Origin: Pedobacter heparinus DSM 2366
GTDB lineage: Bacteria > Bacteroidota > Bacteroidia > Sphingobacteriales > Sphingobacteriaceae
Direction: 5' to 3'
NCBI RefSeq assembly: GCF_000023825.1
Contig: NC_013061.1
Coordinates: forward strand, 2,232,001-2,296,000
DNA: 64,000 bases
Shown here: one piece after another, positions 1 through 6,192 of the stretch
How the letters are laid out: every line of letters begins with the position of its first letter
How positions within the stretch are numbered: position 1 is the stretch's first letter
The notes under the pieces: model-generated
What the model saw: the letters and a program-made list of their open reading frames with translations, nothing else
Databases searched by the model: none
What the model was told of the DNA's origin: nothing
Made by a program: the position numbers and the translations under genes

Positions 1-1351
1 TTTTATGATAACCATGTTTTACAAGGTTTATCAACCCTAAACTGTAACCGGATGAAGTGTCTGATACATTGATAAGGCCAAGCTGGAAACCATCCATTTT
101 TTTGGCATAGTTAAGAATACCAGCAATTTGTACCCCCTTTAAGTGCCTGGTCATATTAGCTATGCCAGCTATCTGGATGCCTTCCATGTCTTTGCGTACC
201 AGGTTGGCAATGCCAGCAATTTGTACCCCATCAACATTTTCTTTAATAACGTTTACAATTCCTGCTGCCTGTACACCCTTCATACTCCTGGCCGACAAGT
301 TGCAAAGCCCGGCAACCTGAAAGCCTTCAGTTTCACCTTTAACACGGTTAAGCAGTCCGGCTGCCTGGAAGCCTTTCTTTTCGCCACTTACATTGTTCAG
401 TAAACCTGCCACCTGAAAACCGTTTACAGCGCCGCCAGCCTCATTAAAAAGACCAGCAAACTGTAATTTCTTCACATCACCTTTGGTAATGTTAAAAAGC
501 CCTGCAATTTCAAGTCCATCTGTGCCTGCGGTATAACCACCCAGAACATTCAGTGAAAATTTGTTGACCACCTGGGAGCTCATGATGCCGTGGGAGCTTA
601 AACCCGGTGTAAGTGAAGTTTGAAAAGGACTGTTGGCAAAAAAACTGGGGATGTTTAAACTCTGGATCCTTTGTTTGGAAGAAATGAAGAACCTGCCGAT
701 TCCCGAATTTTCGACATCACTGAACAGACCATTTGCTTCATCTGCGTTTGGGTCTTTATAACCCTCTGGTTTCACTTTAATGTCAGATAGGAAGACGAGC
801 GTGGTGTCTCTGTAGTTTTCTTTGGCAGCTGTTAATATCACTTCATTATGGTCACCTTTAAACCTCAGTTTAAAGAAGCCCTCATGATCTGTAAGTGTAG
901 ACTGCAAGAGACGTTTTTCATAAACACTGGCCTGTTTAACCTTACGACCCGTTTCTGTATCTATTACATAACCACTGATCAGGTAAAGCTTGTCGGCAGT
1001 GGTGATGTTTTCAGGTTCTATGGTAAGGTGGTTTGCTGCATAACGGAGAATGATATATTCCCCGTTTTCCTTGTAATCTACCTTATTGTTAAAAAGCCTG
1101 TCCAATATTTCCCTTACCGGCGTATTTCTGACATTCAGACTAACCAGGCTATCTGTTGTGAACAAGGCCCCGCTGTAAGAGAAATAGAATGCCCCGGCGC
1201 GGCTAACCCTGGTGAGTACTTCTGATATCTGGGTATTTTTTACTTCTATACTTACTCTTTTTTCTAAATTGTGTTTAGAAGGGGCAAGTGGCATCTGGGC
1301 TTGCAGGTATCCGGTAAGGATGGACAGGATGAGCGTAAGTTTTAATTTCAT
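1..1351 (-). CDS. STN-domain protein with carboxypeptidase-like domain and surface repeats (partial, 3' end outside window)
   Basis: The reading frame starts at ATG 1349-1351 and stays open to the window edge, giving about 450 residues. A signal peptide (about 1-19, ending LQAQ) is followed by an STN domain (about 28-85, the secretin/TonB short N-terminal fold), a carboxypeptidase-regulatory-like beta domain (about 112-190), and about ten repeats of 17-19 residues with the pattern G-x-Q-x-AG-x-x-N (about 265 to the edge). The repeats resemble the LA_2272-type surface repeats also seen in the protein at 4334-5494. Its ATG overlaps the FecR stop (ATGA), so the two are probably translationally coupled. 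In SusC-type receptors an STN domain signals to FecR. Here no beta-barrel is visible in the part seen, so a signalling role without TonB transport is inferred. The C-terminus cannot be judged. Confidence 0.85.
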   Translation of the reverse strand, partial: MKLKLTLILSILTGYLQAQMPLAPSKHNLEKRVSIEVKNTQISEVLTRVSRAGAFYFSYSGALFTTDSLVSLNVRNTPVREILDRLFNNKVDYKENGEYIILRYAANHLTIEPENITTADKLYLISGYVIDTETGRKVKQASVYEKRLLQSTLTDHEGFFKLRFKGDHNEVILTAAKENYRDTTLVFLSDIKVKPEGYKDPNADEANGLFSDVENSGIGRFFISSKQRIQSLNIPSFFANSPFQTSLTPGLSSHGIMSSQVVNKFSLNVLGGYTAGTDGLEIAGLFNITKGDVKKLQFAGLFNEAGGAVNGFQVAGLLNNVSGEKKGFQAAGLLNRVKGETEGFQVAGLCNLSARSMKGVQAAGIVNVIKENVDGVQIAGIANLVRKDMEGIQIAGIANMTRHLKGVQIAGILNYAKKMDGFQLGLINVSDTSSGYSLGLINLVKHGYHK

Positions 1352-2310
1352 TTGGTATTTTTAGACAACAAGAGCTGGTTTTCGTTACGGACAGACTTTA
1401 AATCAAGCGTAAGACAGATTGTTTTTAAATTATCGGCTAAACTTGCTGTGGTTTTTAAAGTTGTAAATAAGGTCAGGTCTCTTATGGCCGGATCTTTAAT
1501 CACGATTTCTGAATTATAAGCCTCATTTAAAACTTCAACTACACGCCATAAAGGGGTATTGTTCAATACAAATTCGTTGCTGCGGTAATAATTGTACAGC
1601 TGATCTGTACTTTGCATTTTAACCAGTTTGTCGGTTGTGTTTTTTATGATTATTTTTTCTCCCTTGTGAAGGGCTATTTCATCCTTGCCAAGGCTTACTT
1701 TTACGATTCCGGTCTCGACAATAACTTCAGTTTGGTGGTTTAAGTGTTTTACATTGAAGGAGGTACCCACTACAAGTACAGCAATTTTGTCTACATCAAT
1801 TACAAATGGCCGGGTTTTATCGTGCAGTACGTTAAAAAATACTTCACCCTGCTGCAGATGGACGCTTCTGTTTTTTTTAAAATTAGTTGCATAGCTGAGT
1901 TGGGTGTTTTTGTTGAGTGTAACTTCAGACCCATCGGGGAGCAATTGTTTGTTTATGGTGTTGCCAGCGGTTATGGGGGTATAGGAAACCGGTGAAAAGA
2001 TACTGTATACAGACCATGCAGCAGCAATGAGGAAAAGAACGGCTGCAATTTTAAGCCATTGGTAGGTTGGTTTTATGCGGCGTACAAGGGGCTGATGCGC
2101 GGCTGATGCTCTTTGTTTAAACCTTAGCCAGGCTTCATCTCCGTTAACATTGCTTTGGGTGGAAAGCTTTTTACTGCTGTTCCATATTTGTTTAAACTGT
2201 TCAAAATGTTTTGCATTGGAAGGAGCGGCGTCTAACCAGTTTTGTACGGCTATGCCTTCCTCTTCACTTGTTTCTTTTAGCAGAAACTTTATCAATAATT
2301 CATCCGTCAT
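1348..2310 (-). CDS. FecR family anti-sigma factor
   Basis: The 320-residue protein has an N-terminal cytoplasmic helical region (about 1-80) that should bind the sigma factor, one membrane segment near 87-106 (IAAVLFLIAAAWSVYSIF), a periplasmic FecR domain (about 115-215, with the LPDGSEVTLNKNTQLSY signature) and a C-terminal DUF4974-like domain (about 250-315). FecR proteins hold an ECF sigma factor until an outer-membrane STN domain signals. It lies 7 nt after its sigma gene and overlaps the downstream STN-protein gene by 4 nt, so sigma, FecR and STN protein form one signalling set. Length and domain order are normal for the family. Confidence 0.93.
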   Translation of the reverse strand: MTDELLIKFLLKETSEEEGIAVQNWLDAAPSNAKHFEQFKQIWNSSKKLSTQSNVNGDEAWLRFKQRASAAHQPLVRRIKPTYQWLKIAAVLFLIAAAWSVYSIFSPVSYTPITAGNTINKQLLPDGSEVTLNKNTQLSYATNFKKNRSVHLQQGEVFFNVLHDKTRPFVIDVDKIAVLVVGTSFNVKHLNHQTEVIVETGIVKVSLGKDEIALHKGEKIIIKNTTDKLVKMQSTDQLYNYYRSNEFVLNNTPLWRVVEVLNEAYNSEIVIKDPAIRDLTLFTTLKTTASLADNLKTICLTLDLKSVRNENQLLLSKNTK

Positions 2311-2317
2311 GCTGTTG

Positions 2318-2905
2318 CTAGTTAAAAAAATCCCTGTAATACATCAGGCCTAATAAAATGAGCGAAAGGAAGTCGGCCAGCTTCAGTCGCATTATTCTGA
2401 GCGCTTTGCCCATTTGGTTTTCTATAGTTTTTACAGACAGGCCCAGCTGTTCCGCTATTTCCCTGTATTTTAATTCTTCAAACCTGCTCATCTGGAATAT
2501 GGTACGGCATTGTTCGGGCAATTCATTTAAGGCCTTTCCAATCTGGTATTCCAGTTCGGTCATTTCTGCTTTTGAAGAGGCGGGTTCATGATGGCTGTTC
2601 ATGGTATAGCTTGCAAAATCCTGGTATTTTGTTTTAATCTTTTCATGTTTTAAAAAGTTCAGGCTGTCGTGGTAAACGCATTTATAAAGATAGGCCTTAA
2701 CCGAGGTCTGGATATTCAACAGCTCCCTTTTCTCCCAAAATTTTAAAAACATGGTCTGTACTATTTCTTCGGCGGTATCTTCATCTTTTAACAAGGCCAG
2801 GGCATAAGCGTGCAAGGCCTTAAAATGTGCTTTGAACAATTGTTCAAAAGCTTGGTCATCATATGGTTGTGATGTATTTGCCGAAATGCTGCTTTTTAAC
2901 TCCAA
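2318..2905 (-). CDS. ECF RNA polymerase sigma factor (sigma-70 family)
   Basis: The 195-residue protein has region 2 (about 20-90, with DEDTAEEIVQTMFLKFWEKR typical of region 2.2-2.4) and region 4 (about 120-175, ALNELPEQCRTIFQMSRFE then a helix-turn-helix around YREIAEQLGLSVKTIENQM). There is no region 1.1 or 3, as expected for ECF factors. The tail (about 178-192) is unusually hydrophobic. FecR follows 7 nt downstream. The gene lies 29 nt after the DUF4833-like gene and is probably part of the same minus-strand operon. It should direct transcription of the surface-protein genes around it, which is inferred from context. Confidence 0.93.
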   Translation of the reverse strand: MELKSSISANTSQPYDDQAFEQLFKAHFKALHAYALALLKDEDTAEEIVQTMFLKFWEKRELLNIQTSVKAYLYKCVYHDSLNFLKHEKIKTKYQDFASYTMNSHHEPASSKAEMTELEYQIGKALNELPEQCRTIFQMSRFEELKYREIAEQLGLSVKTIENQMGKALRIMRLKLADFLSLILLGLMYYRDFFN

Positions 2906-2934: not shown

Positions 2935-3633
2935 TCAGGTTCTTATTCTCTTTAAAATCTCTATTCCGGTTGCACAGTTTGTGGTGATCAAATCTATATA
3001 CTGTATTTTTGGAAACCAAAAGCTACCTCCATTTACCCTTACAAATACCCTTTTTAGCAAGAGGTTTTTACCTTCATCTTTAATGTAAATGTGGTATTTC
3101 TGGTCTGTTTCTGATTTTCTGAGATACATGGGCATCTTTTTATAGGCCACCAGCCTGATCTCATACTCATCTTCGCCAATGGGCCTGCTTTTTATACCGT
3201 AGGCAAATTTCTTTTCAATACTGGTCAGCTCTTTGAACTTTTGTGCCTCTTCATACCTGATCCAGGAACCTTTAATGGGATTATTGCGGTATAAAGTGCC
3301 GTCGCTGTTGTAGTTAAGTTCATAAACTACAGTGTTTGCATCCGGATCGCGCTGCAAAAAGAACAATAGGTTACTGCCTTTTGGAGTAGGCAAATTTTCT
3401 GGTTCTACCTGTTTTTGTGCAAATGTTGACTGGCTTAGCAACAACAGCATGGCTAAAATGATCAATATACTCCTGAGCAACCTTTTACCCAGTGGAACGG
3501 CTGCTTTAGATTGCCGGAGGTTTTTATTGGCTTTATGTTTGTAGACTTTGGATGGACTCGCAAAAATAAAGAACAGCAGTTCTTTTAAACCGTCACTTTG
3601 TTTAATGTCCTGCAGCATATCCCTGTATACCAT
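2935..3633 (-). CDS. DUF4833-like exported protein
   Basis: About 232 residues from ATG 3633. An upstream in-frame ATG at 3672 would overlap the preceding gene by 29 nt, so the inner start is preferred. A charged, possibly cytoplasmic stretch of about 50 residues precedes a hydrophobic segment (LLRSILIILAMLLLLSQSTFAQ, which looks like a signal sequence), then a soluble domain with NLLFFLQRDPDANTVVYELN, a central SWIRYEEAQK and KKFAYGIKSRP. These match my memory of DUF4833, a family without a known function. The long stretch before the signal-like segment is odd and could mean a membrane anchor or a start further downstream. It lies between the DUF2807 lipoprotein and the sigma gene in one tight operon. 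Confidence 0.7.
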   Translation of the reverse strand: MVYRDMLQDIKQSDGLKELLFFIFASPSKVYKHKANKNLRQSKAAVPLGKRLLRSILIILAMLLLLSQSTFAQKQVEPENLPTPKGSNLLFFLQRDPDANTVVYELNYNSDGTLYRNNPIKGSWIRYEEAQKFKELTSIEKKFAYGIKSRPIGEDEYEIRLVAYKKMPMYLRKSETDQKYHIYIKDEGKNLLLKRVFVRVNGGSFWFPKIQYIDLITTNCATGIEILKRIRT

Positions 3634-3643
3634 TTTTGTAAAT

Positions 3644-4294
3644 TTAAAATTTGATAACTTTACCAGAGCCACTTACATCAGCGTCTACATCAGGGTTTCC
3701 GGTGTAATAAATTTTCCCGCTTCCACTGATCCTGGCCTTTAACTTTTCTTCCACTTTCAGCTTTGCATCGCCACTTCCGGAAATGTCTATCTGTGCCTTT
3801 CTTGCGTTTATTTGCTGAAGGTCAGCTTTACCGGAGCCGGAGATCTGTACCAATACTTCATCTGAATCAAAGGCGTCCTGAACTGTAGCATCACCAGAAC
3901 CGCTTATTGACAATTTGAAATCAATAGCTCTTGGAAAGGAACCCTGTACAAGGGTTTTTCCGCTACCGCTTATCGAAACTTTCCTGATGGAGGGCAGTGT
4001 TACAAATACTTCAACATCATCGTGCTGTACGCTGGCTTTTTCGTAACCCAGATATAAGGTGTTGCCGGTTACACTGGTTTTAAAATAGGGGATCAGATTG
4101 TTGGAGCCTTTCAGTACCACTTTAAATTCAGTTCCATAAGTGATGTATACAGAGTTTGAGCCGCTGGTACTTATGCCGTTAAAGTCTCCCGGACTGCGTT
4201 CTTCTGTTATTTTGTCGCCGCTTGCGCTGAGCTTTTCTTTAGAGCAGCCTGTAAATAGGATGCCCAATAATGTGATCAAGGTTAAAATTCTCAT
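3644..4294 (-). CDS. DUF2807 lipoprotein (putative adhesin-type GIN domain)
   Basis: The 216-residue protein starts with a lipoprotein signal peptide (LLGILFTGC lipobox, Cys about 17) and has one DUF2807 domain over about 30-216. The domain shows the typical short repeats ISGSGK/ISGSGD, at least six times, which in this family build a right-handed beta-solenoid. Members are usually outer-membrane-anchored surface proteins of unknown ligand; the adhesin label is only a family name. The gene sits 39 nt after the surface-repeat protein and 10 nt before the DUF4833-like gene on the same strand. Confidence 0.87.
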   Translation of the reverse strand: MRILTLITLLGILFTGCSKEKLSASGDKITEERSPGDFNGISTSGSNSVYITYGTEFKVVLKGSNNLIPYFKTSVTGNTLYLGYEKASVQHDDVEVFVTLPSIRKVSISGSGKTLVQGSFPRAIDFKLSISGSGDATVQDAFDSDEVLVQISGSGKADLQQINARKAQIDISGSGDAKLKVEEKLKARISGSGKIYYTGNPDVDADVSGSGKVIKF

Positions 4295-5494: not shown

Positions 5495-5572
5495 TTTTTG
5501 TCTTGTTTTAATTAGGACAACCAGATGAACATTTACCCCTACGCAGGATTATAAATTAATTTAATTTAAGGG

Positions 5573-5625: not shown

Positions 5626-6192
5626 ATGTTGTTATATGTTAAAAATATGGTTTGCGACCGCTGTATCATGATTGTGAGGCAGCAGCTGGAAAATTTTGGG
5701 TTTAAAGTGAAAGAGATTTCTTTAGGAAAAATAGCTATTGAACCTGAGGCCAATGAGGGACAACTGCAGGACATTGCTGCTGCTTTAGGAACGTTGGGAT
5801 TTGAGTTGATGGATAAGGAAAAAGACCAGCTGGTTGAACAGATTAAAACACAGGTGATTGATCTGATCCATTATTCGGAGCTGAATGAGCTGCAACAGAG
5901 CCTGAGCCAGGAAATAGCAGATAAATTAAATAAGGACTATGCTTACCTGAGCAGGCAGTTTTCTGATGCTGAAGGCCTGACCATTGAAAAGTACATTATC
6001 CAGCAAAAAATTGAAAAGGTAAAGGAATTACTTGAATATGGCGAGCTGAATTTAAACGAGATTGCTTATAAGATGGGATACAGCAGCAGTGCACATTTAT
6101 CGACCCAGTTTAAGGCGATTACAGGTCTTACGCCGAGTAAGTATAAAACGGCTACCTTAAACGACAGAAAATCATTGGATAAGGTTGGATAG
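5626..6192 (+). CDS. AraC-family regulator with N-terminal HMA-like domain
   Basis: The 188-residue protein has an N-terminal heavy-metal-associated-like fold (about 1-65) with NMVCDRC in the first loop, a linker helix, and a C-terminal AraC-type double helix-turn-helix (about 85-180, with LNEIAYKMGYSSSAHLSTQFKA-type residues and GLTPSKYK at the end). The CxxC could bind a metal, but such domains are widespread in Bacteroidota regulators and may sense something else. It is divergent from the surface-protein operon and just upstream of the Ter operon, so it could control either; the sequence does not decide. Confidence 0.85.
   Translation: MLLYVKNMVCDRCIMIVRQQLENFGFKVKEISLGKIAIEPEANEGQLQDIAAALGTLGFELMDKEKDQLVEQIKTQVIDLIHYSELNELQQSLSQEIADKLNKDYAYLSRQFSDAEGLTIEKYIIQQKIEKVKELLEYGELNLNEIAYKMGYSSSAHLSTQFKAITGLTPSKYKTATLNDRKSLDKVG

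Follow-up and report, generated by a model that had tools for sequence, protein, structure and literature searches.

FecR surface signalling is generally linked to TonB-dependent import. At the left end of a 64,000-nt window of the Pedobacter heparinus DSM 2366 genome (the window being the whole stretch of DNA analysed, NC_013061.1, positions 2,232,001 to 2,296,000 of a 5.17-Mb single-contig genome), six co-directional minus-strand genes, separated by short gaps or overlaps, encode in order an LA_2272 repeat protein, a DUF2807 protein, a DUF4833 protein, an extracytoplasmic function (ECF) sigma factor, a FecR-type anti-sigma factor and a protein that joins an STN domain to LA_2272 repeats (the STN/LA_2272 protein; Table 1). 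Together they are probably a surface signalling module of the FecI/FecR type that uses a transducer other than a TonB-dependent receptor and controls an outer-membrane regulon.

A sequence-only reading of the window had noted that the sigma and FecR genes are followed, with a four-nucleotide ATGA overlap, by the gene for an STN protein, and had proposed that the STN domain is carried by a surface-repeat protein in place of a SusC/FecA barrel. The observation is confirmed, with the overlap at 1348-1351, and the interpretation is partly supported. The last 145 codons of the STN gene lie beyond the left edge of the window (G000:C1:2231564-2232000, 437 nt including the stop codon), and extension into the whole genome yields a complete gene (G000:C1:2231564-2233351) of 595 aa. 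Its product comprises a signal peptide (recognised by eye), an STN domain, a CarboxypepD_reg-like domain, LA_2272 repeats and about 150 more residues, which rules out a TonB plug and barrel past the edge. Furthermore, a class-wide set of 38 STN/LA_2272 proteins, to which this one belongs, has no match to Pfam Plug or TonB-barrel domains; CarbopepD_reg_2 was detected in 37 of the 38 and STN, at E<0.01, in 23. By sequence, no relative of solved structure was found for the STN protein except for weak DotD matches, and a class-wide profile compared with solved structures returned mainly CarboxypepD_reg-type domains along with weak matches. The repeats themselves are regular: the strict pattern G-x-Q-x-[AGS]-G-x-x-N occurs seven times between residues 311 and 406, at spacings of 16, 16, 16, 16, 16 and 15 residues, against 0.003 expected per shuffled protein, so that a chance origin is rejected. 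A looser pattern gives eight copies, and the 'about ten' first claimed is reached only by counting degenerate ones.

The arrangement extends well beyond P. heparinus. Within Pedobacter, 65 of 99 genomes have a match to the protein; at higher ranks, matches occur in 16 of 25 genera in the family and in 51 of a class-wide sample of 155 genera. Some of these matches are to STN-less LA_2272 proteins only. Most Pedobacter orthologues retain the full length of the protein. We read 84 STN/LA_2272 loci (43 from Pedobacter, 40 class-wide from 35 Bacteroidia genera outside the family, and the window's own). In 77 of them sigma and FecR are upstream and co-directional, and FecR falls within 60 nt of the STN/LA_2272 gene in 74, often with overlaps of 1 or 4 nt; the linkage to sigma and FecR that the first reading implied is thus kept across Bacteroidia. 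Exceptions include three loci with a sigma/FecR pair nearby on the opposite strand (L065, L066, L079), three class-wide loci with FecR and no sigma open reading frame (ORF) called (L147, L159, L167), and one with neither (L158). Recurrent neighbours of the module are an STN-less LA_2272 protein, DUF2807 and an STN-less TonB-receptor-like protein (TBDT) of about 790 aa. A second Pedobacter family of STN/LA_2272 proteins, about 690-730 aa long with an extra C-terminal part, is present at L069, L071, L073, L076 and L225; at several of these loci a gene for 477-487 aa comes next, which in L225 encodes a type I phosphodiesterase with its own [AG]TAGGGGT-N15-TGTC site.

That bipartite motif is new in this analysis and goes beyond the earlier reading. 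It is common to the upstream regions of module genes, both in Pedobacter and in class-wide loci, and is predicted to be the conserved promoter of the module. In Pedobacter, 17 of 25 loci have it 5' of the LA_2272 gene; in the class-wide set, 12 of 36 loci have it 5' of the sigma gene. Shuffled sequences reached at best 3, and comparison of upstream regions also places the motif 5' of TBDT, LA_2272 and DUF2807 genes. The P. heparinus genome, which encodes 38 other STN proteins, contains two exact copies. The first, whose specific form GTAGGGGT-N15-TGTC occurs exactly only once in the 5.17 Mb, is 21 nt 5' of the LA_2272 gene that opens the operon (window 5516-5542, minus strand), and the second (C1:2941970-2941996) is 23 nt 5' of a gene for an 800-aa STN-less receptor-like protein (start C1:2942020). 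Across genomes, motif and module also tend to occur together: the motif was found in 49 of 65 Pedobacter genomes with a protein match and 8 of 34 without (p 1e-6), and, across the class, in 57 of 70 and 63 of 225 respectively (p 2e-15), where a match to the STN/LA_2272 protein counts as presence of the module and includes some STN-less relatives.

The genes downstream of other motif sites suggest what the sigma factor may control. A further 32 sites were read in Pedobacter genomes that have the module, and 8 in Pedobacter genomes that lack it. Those in module-bearing genomes include sites before genes for TBDT (six genomes), lipid A acyltransferase (five), an outer-membrane barrel of 189-209 aa (five) and DUF6268 (two), mostly at 18-64 nt; some other sites fall within unrelated ORFs or 5' of other genes. 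The class-wide set adds unlinked sites 5' of DUF2807-like genes (recognised by eye) and LA_2272 genes. The predicted target families are TBDT, lipid A acyltransferase (PF03279), OMP_b-brl_2, DUF6268 and DUF2807, assigned by Pfam for three acyltransferases, two barrels and one DUF6268 protein, by BLAST for the other acyltransferases and by eye for the rest. The five acyltransferases downstream of the motif share 33-35% identity with the single copy in P. heparinus, and we read them as putative second paralogues in their genomes. DUF2807 is a member of the Toastrack group, which a survey of PSP systems tied to envelope stress (PMC11237479), a link that fits its place in the proposed envelope-related regulon. 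A promoter study of Flavobacterium psychrophilum (PMC9723704) reports an ECF-like motif that includes a CGT box; that motif is not equated with the present one.

Structure prediction offers a view of how such a transducer might be built. An AlphaFold model of an orthologue (L011, 69% identical), based on an alignment of seven sequences, has strands of seven and four residues in each repeat and a C-terminal strand set, mostly with a predicted local distance difference test score (pLDDT) of 65-88. Compared by VIA-align, residues 236-431 of this model match left- and right-handed beta-helices, and residues 430-580 match eight-stranded outer-membrane barrels (OprF, Z 13.9, 2.4 Å; NspA, Z 13.1, 2.9 Å). 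The STN-less LA_2272 protein of the operon (mean pLDDT 76.5) is likewise modelled as a beta-solenoid and an eight-stranded barrel, and both models align with the barrels of OprF, NspA and OmpA at Z 12-14 and a root-mean-square deviation of about 2-3 Å; plain Foldseek E-values are weak, the best being 0.002-0.004. The last residue is F in 45 of the 83 STN proteins and in 31 of the 39 STN-less LA_2272 proteins, against 4% of other ORFs. The LA_2272 repeats are accordingly modelled as a predicted beta-solenoid, and the C-terminus as a predicted eight-stranded OmpA-like barrel.

Both chain ends of an even-stranded outer-membrane barrel are normally periplasmic. Because the predicted barrel is C-terminal and the STN domain must reach FecR in the periplasm, the solenoid is probably periplasmic as well, which weakens the description of the protein as a surface-repeat protein and makes that part of the sequence-only reading doubtful. 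An alternative in line with the surface ligand of that reading is an adhesin or autotransporter-like sensor, with the solenoid exported through or past the barrel to sense an external ligand. The order of beta-solenoid and C-terminal barrel does recall autotransporters, and NCBIfam labels the NF047436 repeats 'surface repeat', but the STN domain precedes the solenoid and would have to remain periplasmic to meet FecR, and eight strands would make a narrow export channel; on balance we think this explanation improbable. Surface exposure is possible for the STN-less LA_2272 paralogue.

A more serious competitor starts from the TBDT, which also bears on the suggestion of the sequence-only reading that sensing may take place without import. 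The module-associated proteins of about 790 aa carry Plug in 22 of 24 cases, CarboxypepD_reg in 24 of 24 and STN in 0 of 24, and they lie in or near the module at about half of the 40 class-wide loci. One chain could bind and import a ligand while the STN/LA_2272 protein signals in trans, in which case the system would be ordinary nutrient-uptake signalling divided between two chains. In favour of such a split, the TBDT carries the module's promoter motif and the close Pedobacter orthologues all occur in genomes with the module (11 of 11). Among the 65 module-bearing Pedobacter genomes, however, the TBDT was detected at E<=1e-90 in 14 and absent from 51, with the ten best candidates per genome scored, so that an obligate partnership is rejected for Pedobacter, where a split transducer cannot hold in general. 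Small barrels and a lipid A acyltransferase would, moreover, be odd targets for a single uptake system. We regard a split transducer as unlikely, while giving it more weight than surface export. The TBDT is a frequent target of the module rather than its obligate partner, and it may still act as a partner of the STN/LA_2272 protein. In P. heparinus its only homologue found is the 800-aa gene at C1:2942020, which is unlinked to the module.

Least probable of all is that the STN/LA_2272 protein is a degenerate receptor, a brake or decoy that shields FecR and senses nothing itself. In Pseudomonas, binding of TonB-dependent transducers to the anti-sigma factor is reported to need no inducing signal and to guard that factor against proteolysis (PMC11637429), and in one Pedobacter the orthologue is interrupted by stops (G058:C1:3994117-3995849), with intact copies in relatives. 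Against this, long repeat and barrel regions have been retained across the class, which suggests a function beyond that of STN.

Under the favoured interpretation, a FecI/FecR-type module with a transducer of another kind, the small C-terminal barrel would anchor the STN/LA_2272 protein in the outer membrane, and the periplasmic solenoid at its base would register a change, either in that membrane or in a partner protein, for which the STN-less LA_2272 protein is a candidate. By analogy with the FecA and PupB systems, STN would then pass the signal to the C-terminal domain of FecR, which would be cleaved or would release the sigma factor. The freed sigma factor would transcribe its own operon from [AG]TAGGGGT-N15-TGTC promoters and may also raise the expression of outer-membrane upkeep genes: TBDT, small outer-membrane barrels and, in some species, lipid A acyltransferase. 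If this explanation holds, our likeliest guess at the signal is outer-membrane or lipopolysaccharide (LPS) stress, although we would expect the guess to fail somewhat oftener than succeed. We also consider less likely than not the broader proposal of a class-wide outer-membrane homeostasis system of Bacteroidota, with an import-free solenoid and small-barrel STN protein as sensor of LPS or outer-membrane protein balance, a regulon for LPS and outer-membrane repair driven from the same promoters, and the role of a functional counterpart to proteobacterial sigma-E built from unrelated sensor parts. The comparison with a sigma-E-type regulon draws on the predicted sites 5' of lipid A acyltransferase, small outer-membrane barrels and TBDT in relatives.

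Several observations weigh against this interpretation. The STN match in the P. heparinus protein, at 27.7 bits, is just below the Pfam cut-off of 28.4. We estimate from base composition that chance would place about one copy of the motif in each genome, and a reversed control pattern likewise gives two copies in P. heparinus; the weight therefore rests on the positions of the copies and not on their count. The single acyltransferase of P. heparinus has no exact motif and lies outside the predicted regulon here, so that the LPS link depends on other species. FecI-like systems often control outer-membrane transport genes, and an outer-membrane regulon by itself is no proof of stress sensing. 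The models derive from shallow alignments of seven sequences, pLDDT falls under 50 in the N-terminal half of the full-length model, and the barrel strands show only moderate hydrophobic alternation, which was dropped as proof of a membrane barrel. Finally, the P. heparinus TBDT gene is divergent from a sigma/FecR pair other than that of the module (L182:3005-4831; G000:C1:2937000-2949000), which could act on it too.

Comparison with known systems separates what is familiar in the module from what is not. Like FecI-FecR-FecA of E. coli, it has an ECF sigma factor, a FecR with a C-terminal domain, a (here predicted) outer-membrane protein that bears STN, and a sigma operon under its own (here predicted) promoter; unlike in that system, STN is carried by a predicted solenoid and small-barrel protein in place of a TonB-dependent receptor with plug and 22-strand barrel, and the predicted targets are outer-membrane upkeep genes. 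It shares with SusC-type sigma-FecR systems of Bacteroidota the sigma subfamily TIGR02985, the type of FecR and the order of STN and CarboxypepD_reg, but lacks the plug and the SusC barrel; in P. heparinus itself, by contrast, sigma-FecR pairs are in three cases directly followed by an STN-bearing single-chain protein of about 850-900 aa. That STN can sit on a protein lacking a TonB receptor barrel is already known, VreA being the precedent. The PUMA3 system of P. aeruginosa (VreA-VreI-VreR; PMC2729926) likewise combines such a component with sigma and anti-sigma partners, and its regulon, like the one predicted here, is wider than iron uptake. VreA measures 23 kDa and ends in a TolA/TonB-like domain (PMC2729926), whereas the present protein has 595 aa, CarboxypepD_reg, LA_2272 repeats and a predicted outer-membrane barrel; it gave no Pfam match to a TolA/TonB-like C-terminal domain, and its fold search was taken up by solenoids and outer-membrane barrels. 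Its repeats exceed the curated cut-off of the LA_2272 family (NF047436); we found no member of that family described as carrying STN or as lying in a sigma/FecR operon. Literature searches, mostly excluding subscription journals, found nothing that joins STN domain, FecR, sigma factor and Bacteroidetes, and no prior description of this architecture, promoter or regulon.

Table 1. Features of the STN/LA_2272 locus, in window coordinates
Feature	Position	Strand	Details
STN/LA_2272 transducer gene	1..1351	-	first 450/595 codons
LA_2272 repeat region, residue 279 onward	2..517	-	NF047436 54 bits, cut-off 25, E 1.1e-14; 16-aa period
CarboxypepD_reg-like domain, residues 125-165	857..979	-	PF13715 (CarbopepD_reg_2) E 1.8e-6, below cut-off
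STN domain, residues 57-103	1043..1183	-	PF07660 E 2.4e-6
FecR-type anti-sigma factor	1348..2310	-	FecR 67.4 bits, FecR_C 37.6 bits
ECF sigma factor, Bacteroidetes subfamily TIGR02985	2318..2905	-	170.6 bits, cut-off 126.4; TTG start as called
DUF4833 protein, likely same operon	2935..3672	-	PF16117 E 4.8e-52
DUF2807 (Toastrack / head-GIN) protein, likely same operon	3644..4294	-	PF10988 E 4.1e-32
STN-less LA_2272 protein, 386 aa	4334..5494	-	first gene of likely operon
Predicted ECF promoter, GTAGGGGT-N15-TGTC	5516..5542	-	21 nt before called start of LA_2272 gene

The remaining genes of the likely operon recur with the module to differing degrees. The STN-less LA_2272 protein is 35% identical to residues 250-594 of the STN protein and scores 21.5 against NF047436, under the cut-off of 25. 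Between its gene and the sigma gene, most close Pedobacter relatives also have a DUF4833 gene, and DUF2807 is found repeatedly at the module in several families. Divergent from the operon (window 5626-6192, plus strand) is a gene for a short AraC-type regulator, the N-terminus of which resembles a metal-binding HMA-like stretch (MLLYVKNMVCDRC) and which stays beside the operon in several Pedobacter. Elsewhere in the genome (L180, G000:C1:4402500-4411500) another sigma-FecR pair is followed by an 881-aa TBDT-like ORF with an STN match and, two genes on, by a DUF4833 protein (298 aa); DUF4833 is recurrent near sigma/FecR systems. The STN domain also appears in a secretin within a type II secretion/type IV pilus-like cluster (L010, G000:C1:1285000-1297000), alongside a GspE-like ATPase, a prepilin-like protein and a prepilin-peptidase-like protein.

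In at least 35 Bacteroidia genera, then, the module reads as one in which STN is placed on a different outer-membrane protein and which, judging by its promoter, would control outer-membrane genes. If this is true, it would provide a concrete candidate for outer-membrane stress sensing in Bacteroidota, and the promoter sequence would allow the regulon to be read across many genomes.

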